From positions 1,811,501 to 1,875,500 of the forward strand of contig NZ_CP031705.1 in NCBI RefSeq assembly GCF_022701255.1: a DNA stretch of 64,000 nucleotides, given 5' to 3'. Below, one piece after another: positions 6,217 through 64,000 of this stretch. Position 1 is the stretch's first letter. Every line of letters starts with the position of its first letter. This DNA is from Microcoleus vaginatus HSN003 (GTDB lineage: Bacteria > Cyanobacteriota > Cyanobacteriia > Cyanobacteriales > Microcoleaceae). Made by a program: the position numbers and the translations under genes. A model generated the notes under the pieces. That model saw only the letters and a list, made by a program, of their open reading frames with translations. It did no database searches and was not told the origin of the DNA.

Positions 6217-6403
6217 TGCGGCTTTCCTCAAAACTCATTAAGATTATAGCGTTGATTTGTTGAGCGATAGTATTTATTGAACGAACCGCGAAGACACGAA
6301 GGAAAAGAAGAGAAGATGAGAGGTAATTTTGACTTAGTTAATCTGAAGTAATTTTTGTAAAAGATTTGCTGAGACTTACGCGATCGACTAAACTATGTCT
6401 AAC

Positions 6404-6530
<127 letters not shown>

Positions 6531-6559
6531 TTTACATAGTCTCATCTGCGAGGTTCAGT

Positions 6560-58503: not shown

Positions 58504-60927
58504 ATGACCTCTGTGGAATTTGAAAAAACAGTCATGACTGAAGAAGAGGAGGCAAAGTTATGGGAAGTGTTCAAAGTATTGGACGCGGACGGGAGCGGTG
58601 CTATTTCATCAGAAGAACTCGGTCAAGTGATGCGATCGCTAGGCCAGAGTCCTAACGAAACCGAGCTGCGCGACATGATCGAGGAAGTGGACTTAGACTC
58701 GTCGGGCAGTATCGATTTTGAGGAATTCAAAATGCTGATGGTGTCCCAGCAAGGCGATCGCCAGAGTCGTCTCAAAATGTCATTTAGTGTATTTGATGAA
58801 AACGGTACCGGTCAAATCAGTAAAAACGAGATGCAGGATGTGATGAGCCCGTTTGGGCTGACAGAGCCAGAGCTTGATGAGATCATCAAAGAGGCAGACC
58901 ATGACGGCAATGCCTTAATTGACTTTGAGGAATTCTGCACACTGGTACCCGATGAGTCAGAGATCGCAACAGGAGATCAAGACTTGCCGGTTCCGGTTGT
59001 GAGTACACAGATAACCGAAATTTCAGATAGTACAGAGGCTGCGGCTGCGCTCGAAAGTATAACCACTGCTGTCAACGAGGCAGCTTCTGCCACTATTGAA
59101 CCTAATCTAGAAGATCTACAAGAACCACCCACCGGTTGCAATCGAGAAATAGCGCGGCTAAAAGAACTACTCGCCCAACACCCACAAGGTGAGAAGAAGC
59201 GCGGTACGTCCCGCTTGGAGATGCAGATTGGTTTGTTTCGTCTGATCCAGGGAGCAGCCTACCGCAGCTTCCGCGAGAGTTTCTGTGCCAACCACGAGAC
59301 TCACCTGTGCGTGAGAGACTTGCCATACAGAATTGCTGATTTTGTGCGATTTGTCAGGAGTGCGATCGCGCTTTATAAAGGATTGGGTGTAGTAGAGTCG
59401 GCGTGCAACCCTCTACTGGATGCAGTAGTTAAATCGCTCGAAGATGAATATGCCCGACTAGAGCATCGCATCAAGAACTGGAAAACCATAGAAAAAACTC
59501 CTGAAATGTTGGCCCAAGAACAAGCCATGTTGCAGGCGCGGGATAAGTCTGCCACCGCCAAGGAGAAGTTTGGGGCGGCAGTCGAGTTGGCCATGACCAT
59601 CAAAAAGGATAGTCTCAACTTGCGTGACATTGCCGAGGGTGTGCTTGCCATCAACGAACTCAACCGACTGCGAAACTTGGAGCTGAGTGAGAACATGGCA
59701 GCGCCACCAGCCAAATCCGAGGGAGATCCCACAGAGTACCTGAAGAAGTGGAACCGCGTCATCCTCTCGGAGGCATCAGAGCAAATAGATGGTGCGATGA
59801 TGCCACTAGCATATTGGTATGAAGACTTTATGCCGAAGTTGCTGGCTGCCTTCAGCGTCATTACCGAAGCAGACATTCCCTTCAACACGGTGCCTGATGA
59901 AGCAGCTTTAAACCAGTGGTACGAAGCGACTAAAACGTCAGGGGAATTTGGGCGCTATGGGGCGGATGTTGCAGAAGGCTTTCCCAAATGCGCTCCAAAA
60001 CAGAAGCTGATGCTTCAACAGGCATGGCGCTTGACGCACCACTACCTCAATGGGATACAGAAACGGCGCGAACGCTTAGAGTCTGGGCGCGAGTCTGGCG
60101 AACTCTCGCAATATGTGGCGTTCATCGATGTGTATATCGATCGCACTGAAGTAAAGAATTCACAAATGCGGGTTAGCTTCCCTTACTATATTGGCCCTGC
60201 GGTGTGGCGTTTCTTGCACACTACGGCTGAGATAGTCTCTACCAAGACCCCAGAACAGCAAAAAACTCTGGTGGCCATCTTCAAGCACTTCTTCAACCTG
60301 TTTGCCAGTATGTATCCCTGCCCCTACTGCCGCCACCACCTCAACGCCTACGTCGTGCAGAATAAGGAGGTGGAAATTTACCCTGTGGAGTACCTCGTGC
60401 TTGGGCGCGACCCGCGTCTCAATAGCTTTGAGGTATCAATGGAGGCAAAGCTGTCCACCGTAGTAGATGGCCCGTCCCTGCGCTTATTCTTCTGGAAGTT
60501 GCACAACACTGTCTCCTCCTCAATTGCGCGATCCGAGGAGTGGTATCAAAAGGATGAGGAAGCATTCTACACCACCCGTTATTGGCCCAGCATTGAGTCT
60601 GAGCTAGCACAAGCCAAAGCCCTCAAACAAATCAGCATTGCCACCGATCGGATGTACCGCCTCTACGGTATCCTCAAGCCCGCAGCACGACTGACAGGGG
60701 TGAGAGCAATATTGCATAAGCTGTTGGATAAGAGGGATGAGGAAAGCATCAAGGAGGTATGCTTAGTTGCTCAAGATTACATCCAGGAGTTGGACGAGGC
60801 GATCGTCACGGGGCAATTCCTACAAGAGATATACTACTTTGACCCTGACCTTGTGGATGAAGCTCCTGTCTTTACTCCTGAAGAAGAGGAGTTTGCTCGA
60901 AGCGGTTTGTTCGTCGAGGCTACTTGA
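58504..60927 (+). CDS. four-EF-hand calmodulin-like / Erv1-ALR sulfhydryl oxidase fusion
   Basis: 807 residues. Residues 10-145 have four complete EF-hand loops: DADGSGAISSEE (27-38), DLDSSGSIDFEE (63-74), DENGTGQISKNE (98-109) and DHDGNALIDFEE (132-143), with calmodulin-like helices between (GQVMRSLGQSPNETELRDMI). An acidic linker runs to about 210. A helical middle part (about 210-555) is unrecognised and has a CX7C pair (Cys261, Cys269). At about 563-680 are the Erv1/ALR marks: GPAVWRFLHTTA, YPCPYC (Cys606, Cys609) and FFWKLHNTV, the FAD-contact W, H and HN positions. The last 120 residues are helical. No signal peptide, so cytoplasmic. I infer a calcium-controlled disulfide-forming enzyme. 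Confidence 0.8.
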   Translation: MTSVEFEKTVMTEEEEAKLWEVFKVLDADGSGAISSEELGQVMRSLGQSPNETELRDMIEEVDLDSSGSIDFEEFKMLMVSQQGDRQSRLKMSFSVFDENGTGQISKNEMQDVMSPFGLTEPELDEIIKEADHDGNALIDFEEFCTLVPDESEIATGDQDLPVPVVSTQITEISDSTEAAAALESITTAVNEAASATIEPNLEDLQEPPTGCNREIARLKELLAQHPQGEKKRGTSRLEMQIGLFRLIQGAAYRSFRESFCANHETHLCVRDLPYRIADFVRFVRSAIALYKGLGVVESACNPLLDAVVKSLEDEYARLEHRIKNWKTIEKTPEMLAQEQAMLQARDKSATAKEKFGAAVELAMTIKKDSLNLRDIAEGVLAINELNRLRNLELSENMAAPPAKSEGDPTEYLKKWNRVILSEASEQIDGAMMPLAYWYEDFMPKLLAAFSVITEADIPFNTVPDEAALNQWYEATKTSGEFGRYGADVAEGFPKCAPKQKLMLQQAWRLTHHYLNGIQKRRERLESGRESGELSQYVAFIDVYIDRTEVKNSQMRVSFPYYIGPAVWRFLHTTAEIVSTKTPEQQKTLVAIFKHFFNLFASMYPCPYCRHHLNAYVVQNKEVEIYPVEYLVLGRDPRLNSFEVSMEAKLSTVVDGPSLRLFFWKLHNTVSSSIARSEEWYQKDEEAFYTTRYWPSIESELAQAKALKQISIATDRMYRLYGILKPAARLTGVRAILHKLLDKRDEESIKEVCLVAQDYIQELDEAIVTGQFLQEIYYFDPDLVDEAPVFTPEEEEFARSGLFVEAT

Positions 60928-61239: not shown

Positions 61240-64000
61240 TCAATCAGAGCCATTTGCTAAGGAATTAGCTATCTCATCCCCTAGTCTTCTTGCGCCTAGC
61301 GCGTCAATTTCCTGTAACTGCCCCAACAAAGTTCTCAGACCACTACGTCGAAGTGGGCTATGTATTATCCAACTGGGATCTGAATCCCAGAGTTCAGCAA
61401 GAAGTTGAACTAAAAGTTCACTTTCGTCATTTCTGCTAGTGGGTAAGATTTCCTGGTTTTGGATGAGCATTTTGAAAAGTAAACGGCGGAAGTGTCTATA
61501 ATTCGTTGATGTGCCAACACGGTACAATTTTCTTCTCAACCACCTATCAGGAAGTAATACTTCTTGAAAACGCTCTAAAAACTCCATAAGCCATTGATCT
61601 GCTTGAGTTGCATACTGAAGATTTTTCTTAGACCATTGCCACAGCAGGTCAATCAATTTTTCCCAAATATCTCTGACACTACCGAAGAATCGCAGATTTG
61701 GCTCCTGCTGGTTTCTAAGGCCAAACAGATATTCTCCCACTGTACAAGCTGTGTATTTTCTAAATGAGTGGTCAATTATATCCGAAGAATTTTCCTCAAC
61801 AATGCAGTAACTTAAAGTATCTATAACCTCACCTAAAACAATGCAATCTACCAGTTCAACTGTTTTAAACACCTGGAGAATTACATTAATTCCTGTAGCA
61901 AATTCGGTAGAATTGGATTTTACTATTGTATGTATTATTTGAGATTGAGCAGAATAAAGTTGTGTTTCTACAGAATCATCTCCATCCTCTTCTTGCTCTG
62001 CTTTGTTATCTACATAAACTGTTGCCCTTTCGTGCAACAAAGCAAAAAGCACTTGCTCGCGTAATAAACTGATTAAATCCAGCTCTATCTCGCTATCTGG
62101 CTTTGCTTTTAGCACCGGAATCAACGCTGCCGCTAAAAAATCCCAATCAAAGTAATTGTGTAACCAGCGAGGTTGTTGTTGCAGAGGTTGGATAAGTATT
62201 TCTGGAATCCATTGAGAAACATCACTTAGAGAAATTCCTGAATTTTTTTTCTCTTCAAAATCCTTTTGTAAACTAGACCAGACCTCTTCAATTTGAGGCT
62301 TTTCTCGTTTGCTTATTTCTTCAGCATAGGGTACTGCATAAGTCAGGAAAAGGAGGCGGGCTATTCGGGGTGCAATATTGATGAGTTCTTGGGTGAGAGG
62401 GTGAACAAGCCCATATTCTCTTATCCATGAACTCATAAAAGCAGATGTATTGCAATTGCGGACACCAATAAAGCAACGGAAAGCAGATGATCGAAGTAAG
62501 GTTTCAGATTTGCATCTTCGCAGTAATTTAGGGGCCCCATGAGCGAGAAAAGCTTCAGCATCCCTATTATAATTTTGACAACGATTGCCGTCATCTAAAC
62601 TTATCGGTAGATGAGAAAAATCACTAGCATAATCAGTGATGTAGTTCTCCAGTTCTGGGTTGAGATTATCAATAGGAAACTCTAGAATAACAGCAATCGC
62701 TGCCCAAATTATATCTATAAAAGCTTTTTCTCCAAGGCGCTCTTGTAGGGAAGTAAGCTGTTCTTCACTGGTCAGAAGAGTAACAAACTCCCTATCTAGT
62801 TCCGGTGTCTTTTGCAACTCACCATCTAGAACTTTTCGGCACATTATTACGATTTCAAGATGCTGAAGATTCCAAAGTGCAGATTCAGCTTTAGCCTCAA
62901 CTTCAGCATCTGGAGGTAGAGTACCGACGAAGTGAAAGATTCTAGTTCCATGTTCATCCTCTTCCGGCACCCAGTTGTTGCCCTCAAACCAAGCTCGGAT
63001 TTTTAATGCACGATAGCGACTGACCGCTGGAATAAAATTAAGTTGGTGATTATCCCAGTCTGCCAAAATCTGAGATGTTGCATCAAAAGGAATGTCTCTC
63101 TCTAGCCACATTGGGAGTGCTATCTTCTCTAAAAGGGGAATTTTTCTGTGAGATAACTGATGAAATTCAGCTAACTCTTGAGATTCCTCGTTTGACAGTC
63201 GGCTCCATGCCTTCCCAAAATCGAATGCAAAATCTTGTCCCCGATCAATTAATTCAAACTCTAACCATACCCAAAGTTGTAATGACGACTGTAGAGGTAG
63301 TAAGGAACCTTTCAAAAGATTGGGATCGCATTTAGCCAGCGAAATGAGTACCCCAAGCATTGCAACAGTGTCAGCATGCTCAAAGATAATTGATATAGAA
63401 CGTTCGAGTGCTGCTTTAGTCGGACGACTGTAGAGCCATCCCTCTAGCGTCATTAAGAAACAAGCGACAATATCTGGAGACCAAGGATACTTGCGATGCC
63501 AGTACAAAGCATGACGACCACCTTTGAAGTCTTTTCTGTTCTCGCCAATAAGCAAAGTTACGCCATCAGTATCAGTTTCTGGCATACCCTCCAGTTTGTT
63601 CTTTGCCCAGCGATGCTCATGCCAATAATCTGTGGCTACATTACAAAGGCTTGCAATAACATCAACTGCAAGAGATTCATCTATTTGAAGCAGATAAAGA
63701 ATTGCGGAAAACTTGAATGTACAGACATCAAGATCATCAGAGCCTTCTGTTCCAAGATCGTCATCTAACTGTTCAGAGGAGCGCTCGAACTCATAGCGAT
63801 AACCAGGCGGTGAAATAGTCAGAGCTAAAAGTAATTCAGCACCTAGTTGTGGATTGACACGAACTACAAAATTGAGATATCTACCTCCTTGCTTAAGCAT
63901 GAATTTGCGGAACTGACGATCAACCCGCCCTGATGACCCTTTTGGATGTGGAGGCTCAAGCACGCCTACACCATGTCTAGTGAAAGAAAAAGAGGTTTCA
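61240..64000 (-). CDS. large helical protein of unknown function, partial at the right edge
   Basis: The frame is open through the right edge of the window. A GTG at 63963 exists but the codons upstream of it (ETSFSFTRHGVGVLEPPHP) also read without stop to base 64000, so the gene probably begins outside. The visible 900 residues are helical and rich in Leu, Trp and Glu, with no recognisable motif, signal peptide or membrane segment. An acidic stretch (DNKAEQEEDGDDSVETQ) sits near residue 690. The pattern is like the helical C-terminal part of large STAND-type or defence-type NTPases, but the ATPase part, if any, is outside. That comparison is a guess. Confidence 0.6.
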   Translation of the reverse strand, partial: ETSFSFTRHGVGVLEPPHPKGSSGRVDRQFRKFMLKQGGRYLNFVVRVNPQLGAELLLALTISPPGYRYEFERSSEQLDDDLGTEGSDDLDVCTFKFSAILYLLQIDESLAVDVIASLCNVATDYWHEHRWAKNKLEGMPETDTDGVTLLIGENRKDFKGGRHALYWHRKYPWSPDIVACFLMTLEGWLYSRPTKAALERSISIIFEHADTVAMLGVLISLAKCDPNLLKGSLLPLQSSLQLWVWLEFELIDRGQDFAFDFGKAWSRLSNEESQELAEFHQLSHRKIPLLEKIALPMWLERDIPFDATSQILADWDNHQLNFIPAVSRYRALKIRAWFEGNNWVPEEDEHGTRIFHFVGTLPPDAEVEAKAESALWNLQHLEIVIMCRKVLDGELQKTPELDREFVTLLTSEEQLTSLQERLGEKAFIDIIWAAIAVILEFPIDNLNPELENYITDYASDFSHLPISLDDGNRCQNYNRDAEAFLAHGAPKLLRRCKSETLLRSSAFRCFIGVRNCNTSAFMSSWIREYGLVHPLTQELINIAPRIARLLFLTYAVPYAEEISKREKPQIEEVWSSLQKDFEEKKNSGISLSDVSQWIPEILIQPLQQQPRWLHNYFDWDFLAAALIPVLKAKPDSEIELDLISLLREQVLFALLHERATVYVDNKAEQEEDGDDSVETQLYSAQSQIIHTIVKSNSTEFATGINVILQVFKTVELVDCIVLGEVIDTLSYCIVEENSSDIIDHSFRKYTACTVGEYLFGLRNQQEPNLRFFGSVRDIWEKLIDLLWQWSKKNLQYATQADQWLMEFLERFQEVLLPDRWLRRKLYRVGTSTNYRHFRRLLFKMLIQNQEILPTSRNDESELLVQLLAELWDSDPSWIIHSPLRRSGLRTLLGQLQEIDALGARRLGDEIANSLANGSD

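Follow-up and report, generated by a model that had tools for sequence, protein, structure and literature searches.

Does a single cyanobacterial protein join calcium sensing to disulfide formation? The question is raised by one gene of Microcoleus vaginatus HSN003 in the window, the 64,000-nucleotide stretch of DNA analyzed here, for which a preliminary description had proposed a calcium-controlled disulfide-forming fusion of EF-hands with an Erv1/ALR-type oxidase. The frame agrees with that description: it starts with ATG at position 58504 of the plus strand, ends at 60927, and translates into 807 aa. Our leading answer, with a probability of about 0.55, is that the product would be a soluble Erv-type thiol oxidase of the cytosol, FAD-dependent and with a single redox disulfide, and would be tuned by calcium through a calmodulin-like regulatory domain of its own. 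The layout of the gene is as follows.

58504 to 60927, plus strand: whole gene, 807 aa plus stop (open frame with ATG start; homologue search)
58534 to 58947, plus strand: calmodulin-like domain, residues 11 to 148 (Pfam EF-hand families; phmmer to 1ahr)
58582 to 58617, plus strand: EF-hand loop 1, residues 27 to 38 (position, sequence)
58690 to 58725, plus strand: EF-hand loop 2, residues 63 to 74 (position, sequence)
58795 to 58830, plus strand: EF-hand loop 3, residues 98 to 109 (position, sequence)
58897 to 58932, plus strand: EF-hand loop 4, residues 132 to 143 (position, sequence)
58951 to 59190, plus strand: variable acidic linker, residues 150 to 229 (low conservation, pI, dN/dS)
59191 to 60153, plus strand: conserved central domain of unknown family, residues 230 to 550 (alignment of 29 rows; no convincing family match)
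60154 to 60603, plus strand: Erv1/ALR-type domain, residues 551 to 700 (Evr1_Alr match; profile to 4e0h)
60205 to 60219, plus strand: WxxLH motif, residues 568 to 572 (W568 and H572 in 63/63 members)
60319 to 60330, plus strand: active-site CPYC, residues 606 to 609 (C606 and C609 in 63/63 members)
60502 to 60507, plus strand: HN motif, residues 667 and 668 (63/63 members)
60604 to 60924, plus strand: C-terminal tail, residues 701 to 807, no known family (invariant residues; no Pfam match)

Conservation is given below for an alignment of 63 members, from which five fragments, five duplicates, and, as repeats of other loci, L057 to L072 and L081 had been removed; other alignments had 52 or 75 rows, and sets of 29 rows served for profiles. 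The 63 members share 102 invariant positions. G135 is the only one outside residues 236 to 799, a span that runs from the central domain through the Erv domain into the tail.

The N-terminal part closely resembles calmodulin. The Pfam scan found EF-hand_7 (E = 2.7e-29, two stretches) and EF-hand_1 (E = 1.8e-27, four stretches), and four canonical 12-residue loops lie exactly at residues 27 to 38, 63 to 74, 98 to 109, and 132 to 143, where they had been placed before. In a phmmer comparison, residues 11 to 148 matched the solved calmodulin 1ahr over both lobes (E = 2.1e-36, 128.4 bits). The four EF-hands and this score are what the protein has in common with calmodulin and calmodulin-like proteins; here they form one domain of a larger enzyme-like chain, and the protein is not a free-standing calmodulin, the EF part being covalently joined to about 650 further residues. 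The NCBIfam model XopAW reaches 57.2 bits, against a cut-off of 120, and covers only residues 14 to 192, which take in the EF-hand half and run into the linker. The only EF-hand_7 matches in the host genome are the two inside this gene.

By a loop rule that fixes loop positions 1, 3, 5, and 12, all four loops are present in 50 of the 63 members. The near-uniform ligand positions of these 50 are partly by construction, because the rule fixes them; loop position 8, which is hydrophobic and lies outside the rule, is I or V in every one of their loops. The remaining 13 members lack at least one loop by the rule while their oxidase core is unaltered. They comprise seven proteobacterial rows, four rows (L084 to L087) whose genomes are of the same class but small (2.3 to 3.0 Mb), and two additional cyanobacteria. 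Among the 13, L050 ends at a contig edge, with loops 1 and 2 unseen, and L034 misses the rule by one residue, an E at position 3 of loop 2. The four-loop state corresponds to four changes on the tree. Against near relatives, five comparisons of the EF domain gave a dN/dS of 0.18 to 0.39 in four cases; the fifth (L002) gave 1.05, with a small dS. Since 13 of the 63 members lose loops with an unchanged core, calcium binding is, as these alignments have it, not a fixed part of the enzyme; the oxidase core is its constant part, and calcium binding by four loops is the usual state in the rows from filamentous cyanobacteria. The proposal of a calcium-controlled disulfide-forming fusion thus survives in one half: the fusion is real and both families are there, with motifs invariant in 63 members, but control of the enzyme by calcium is putative.

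The same observations bear on the best-surviving alternative, a working Erv-type oxidase whose EF-hand lobe would be mainly structural or partner-binding, with calcium stabilizing it and no switch. The N-terminal EF-like region aligns even in rows with decayed loops (11 rows displayed), including L084 to L087, in which one loop or none meets the rule, and in five such rows scanned with Pfam the EF match was above a cut-off in L054 and L086 but below one in L084 (E = 0.12), in L087, and in Gemmobacter; a lobe kept for its shape is consistent with this. Four canonical loops with near-uniform ligands in 50 of 63 members, even allowing for the selection rule, nevertheless exceed a purely structural need, and we consider this alternative doubtful.

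The oxidase half of the leading reading begins with the Pfam family Evr1_Alr (PF04777), which matches residues 566 to 622 at 42.1 bits, against a cut-off of 27.6 (E = 1.2e-10), and aligns with profile positions 2 to 56 of 93. It is the only Evr1_Alr match in the host genome. The family is also above its cut-off in all 16 of 386 genomes with a match and in seven of seven genomes of other members, and in L086 and L087 the match extends to profile position 82 of 93, spanning the second half of the domain. When a profile of the Erv part from 29 members was compared with solved structures, 13 of the 15 sequences at E ≤ 10 were Erv/ALR proteins, led by yeast Erv1 (4e0h, E = 2.7e-6) and including plant Erv1, Erv2, and ALR. 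These matches span the WxxLH and CxxC helices and end before the HN helix; the HN was aligned with that of plant Erv1 (2hj3) once, in a second stretch that at -1.3 bits gives no support by itself.

The WxxLH, YPCxxC, and HN motifs of the Erv1/ALR family, which the preliminary description had pointed out, are present as W568-R-F-L-H572, Y604-P-C606-P-Y-C609, and H667-N668, and their residues W568, H572, Y604, C606, C609, H667, and N668 are invariant in all 63 members. We take W568, H572, H667, and N668 to be the flavin-contact residues of Erv enzymes. A chance motif or an artefact frame is ruled out by the E-values and by conservation across 63 distinct members. In the Erv part, mean column identity is 78% (29 rows), and dN/dS against five relatives is 0 to 0.19. 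The spacing from C609 to H667 is 58 residues in 60 of the 63 members (range, 58 to 62), compared with about 30 residues between CxxC and HN in small Erv enzymes. The Erv motif reads HNxVN, and its second N, which we did not treat as essential for Erv membership, is S671 in 62 members and N in one. Three distant relatives (P0269, P0271, and P0272; 26 to 32% identity, 179 to 322 aa) share, by eye, a YPxEW...L sequence between CxxC and HN; they may represent a broader Erv subfamily that has this spacer in common. Membership in the Erv1/ALR and EF-hand families is well supported by these comparisons; from it we infer FAD binding, activity, O2 use, a substrate, and calcium control.

Besides C606 and C609, no cysteine is invariant among the 63 members: C301 is kept in 58, C496 in 54, and C753 in 52. 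C301, although invariant in the alignments of 52 and 75 rows, varies among the 63, and the only other close pair of the 807-aa protein, C261-C269, survives in no more than 5 of 52 members. Because C606 and C609 are the only invariant cysteines, the second shuttle or structural disulfide typical of cellular Erv enzymes is, on this alignment, absent. A second cysteine pair is not a defining Erv feature, and in many viral Erv enzymes the FAD-proximal disulfide is the only one (PMC3509050).

A single CPYC pair invites a second alternative, in which the protein would be a thiol-disulfide exchanger or redox sensor, flavin-free or flavin-bound, that swaps with glutathione or thioredoxin as glutaredoxins do, is modulated by calcium, and is no oxidase. 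CPYC is the glutaredoxin active-site sequence, and the lack of a shuttle pair among the 63 members, the lack of a visible export signal, and the incomplete Erv match are all compatible with an exchanger. Against it, no glutaredoxin or thioredoxin family appeared at E ≤ 10 in the Pfam or NCBIfam scans, so that glutaredoxin identity on the strength of CPYC is ruled out, and the invariant W, H, H, and N residues and the significant solved matches are those of Erv/ALR proteins; we regard an exchanger as improbable.

In addition to the missing shuttle disulfide, the gene has a second feature beyond the preliminary description, a large conserved central domain. The linker in front of it is variable: residues 161 to 220 have a conservation of 0.46 to 0.54, residues 151 to 229 have a pI of 4.05, and dN/dS against five relatives is 0.50 to 1.24. 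Residues 230 to 560, by comparison, have a mean column identity of 78% (29 rows), equal to that of the Erv part. Among solved structures the central domain had no significant match (a single chain, at E = 1.2). Across 29 members its Pfam matches did not agree; the weak ones, the best with E = 0.0015 (a family in 2 of 29) and 0.002 (10 of 29) and none in the HSN003 protein, were disregarded as inconsistent. The tail, residues 701 to 807, has no Pfam match and carries the invariant residues L730, L773, Y777, P788, E795, and R799 (63 members). A calmodulin-binding role considered for a basic stretch at about residues 514 to 529 was dropped, as most of its residues are invariant even in members with decayed loops. 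That the protein is chiefly a calcium-triggered H2O2 source with the disulfide as a by-product, in a role like that of EF-hand NADPH oxidases, is very unlikely: Erv chemistry with O2 does give H2O2 and no substrate relay is conserved among the 63 members, but the large central domain suggests a specific partner.

The fusion is not the isolated oddity it had seemed but one of a family of hundreds: two protein searches gave at least 576 homologues at E ≤ 1e-3 and at least 571, respectively, where the candidates sharing the most words were scored and the best 120 of 576 and the best 120 of 571 were detailed. Among the best 120 of 576, all 120 have Evr1_Alr and 118 have an EF-hand family; the two others are shorter (592 and 669 aa), and the 669-aa one starts within the last EF-hand. 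One of the homologues, P0107, comes from Nostoc punctiforme. Annotation names in this set include "EF-hand domain-containing protein," "thiol oxidase," "ERV1/ALR-related protein," and "histidine kinase," the last of which seems wrong. Of 386 genomes sampled from the phylum, that of HSN003 among them, 16 have the Erv family, versus none of 14 control genomes. The same 16 genomes match a model of the central domain, 15 of them over nearly its whole length, and no genome among the 386 was found to have the central domain without the Erv domain or the reverse. In the sixteenth (G167, row L088), the match takes in no more than the final 23 positions of this model; it lies in a 362-residue frame that covers the Erv end and is possibly a broken copy.

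Within the genus Microcoleus, 14 of 29 genomes have the central domain, from which we conclude that the gene is accessory. The row closest to the HSN003 protein is also from Microcoleus, with 98% identity over 569 columns. Proteobacterial members come from metagenome bins, except for one on a Gemmobacter plasmid that is 40.8% identical over residues 234 to 805. Three proteobacterial rows with incomplete EF loops (L050, L052, and L053; one labelled Burkholderiales) are nested within the cyanobacterial part of the tree, suggesting horizontal transfer; the deep part of the tree is unsure, with long branches. A viral gene was rejected: viral contigs yielded 51 candidate stretches, and a check against one sequence confirmed none of them. 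Two eukaryotic transcriptome proteins, P0201 and P0210 (EukProt; MMETSP with JGI), are 43 to 45% identical in the Erv part; by eye, P0201 includes the last part of the central domain as well, and the core is thus not confined to bacteria.

Gene neighborhoods give no lead to a substrate. An HtrA-type protease is encoded upstream, and downstream lies a 907-residue frame (61240 to 63963, minus strand) with no Pfam match at E ≤ 1. The most widely shared neighbor cluster is found at 9 of 57 loci, every one of them a Nostoc or Nostocales record; the clusters also present in distant hosts belong to common kinds (such as an ABC ATPase, a kinase, and, judged by eye, a tRNA synthetase subunit) in differing places. 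An operon that would name the substrate was rejected, since no neighbor is widely shared among the 57 loci. Elsewhere in the window are a cobalamin riboswitch (6391 to 6537, 63.9 bits) and a member of the metal-sensitive repressor family PF02583 (55952 to 56305, E = 7.7e-28) with a histidine-rich N terminus.

A hydropathy scan of the whole protein found no membrane segment or signal-like stretch (the peak over 19 residues is 1.1), and a secreted or lumenal enzyme was rejected on hydropathy. The host genome contains two matches to the VKOR family, which usually serves the cell envelope, and a disulfide route outside the cytosol thus probably exists without the EF-hand/Erv gene.

For a calcium-tuned cytosolic oxidase, our preferred reading, we propose the following mechanism. 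Residues 551 to 700 would fold as the Erv helical bundle and hold FAD against the C606-C609 disulfide, as homology and the invariant motifs suggest. Because the protein lacks another conserved pair of cysteines that could serve as a shuttle, a substrate thiol pair would reduce C606-C609 directly, and electrons would pass to FAD and on to O2, yielding a disulfide and H2O2. The central domain (230 to 550) and the tail (701 to 807) may join the oxidase in a single unit and determine which substrate or partner it takes. In filamentous cyanobacteria, calcium in the four EF-hands would shift the N-terminal lobe on this unit and turn the oxidase up or down. Plant CDPKs offer a precedent, in that a built-in calmodulin-like domain controls the enzyme; here the enzyme would be an oxidase and not a kinase, the calmodulin part is N-terminal, and control is putative.

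In favor of the tuned oxidase we count the above-cut-off Evr1_Alr match and its extension in L086 and L087, the Erv solved matches, the invariant motifs, the closeness to calmodulin, the 50 four-loop members, the absence of membrane or signal stretches alongside two VKOR matches, the constant pairing of Erv and central domains, and the low dN/dS of the Erv domain. Against it count the partial Pfam coverage, the solved match that ends before HN, the lack of a widely shared neighbor pointing to a substrate, the EF dN/dS in L002, and the reducing cytosol, in which a disulfide-making enzyme would be unusual; the chief doubts concern the long spacer before HN, the S in place of the second N of HNxVN, and loop loss in a fifth of the rows. 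A fuller proposal, which we offer tentatively, is a cytosolic calcium-gated generator of disulfides and H2O2 that combines a calmodulin-type sensor, a single-disulfide Erv enzyme, and a new partner-binding domain in one chain, by which calcium transients of filamentous cyanobacteria may be converted into thiol oxidation of specific proteins.

Among known systems, the protein resembles the Erv1/ALR enzymes (PF04777; yeast Erv1, Erv2, and human ALR) in its significant profile match and its invariant WxxLH, CxxC, and HN motifs. Unlike them, it is bacterial, has no conserved shuttle or structural cysteine pair, has a longer CxxC-HN spacer and S for the second N of HNxVN, and is fused to EF-hands and a new domain of 320 residues. 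Fusion of an Erv core to another folded domain is also seen in the sulfhydryl oxidases R596 of Mimivirus and Ac92 of baculovirus, which are viral and are not known to have EF-hands. The extra domain of R596 is reported to have a new fold; unlike the cyanobacterial protein, R596 has this domain on its C-terminal side and a CX9C shuttle pair (PMC3509050). The calcium sensor CSE (asr1131) is likewise an EF-hand protein, found almost only in filamentous cyanobacteria; it is small, with two putative EF-hands, and no enzyme domain is mentioned in the portion of the text available (PMC7065334). Erv1/Alr in cyanobacteria is already in print, Nostocales and Oscillatoriophycidea being among the few bacteria that have it, according to PMC10598087. 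No paper on an EF-hand and Erv fusion was found among the matches listed in the open-licence literature, judged by title and abstract start. What is new seems to be the description and not the sequence, the fusion being visible in public annotations.

Calcium signaling mechanisms in cyanobacteria are virtually unknown, and CSE is the only known calcium sensor in Anabaena, according to PMC7065334. How bacteria read intracellular calcium is poorly known in general, and the EF-hand/Erv family, in which a sensor and a predicted enzyme share one chain, makes it possible to assay calcium dependence in one purified protein. The protein also brings a conserved domain, about 320 residues long, that could be assigned to no family. 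If the tuned-oxidase reading is true, a bacterium with VKOR genes would have a cytosolic oxidative enzyme as well, and this enzyme could tie calcium signals to protein oxidation.
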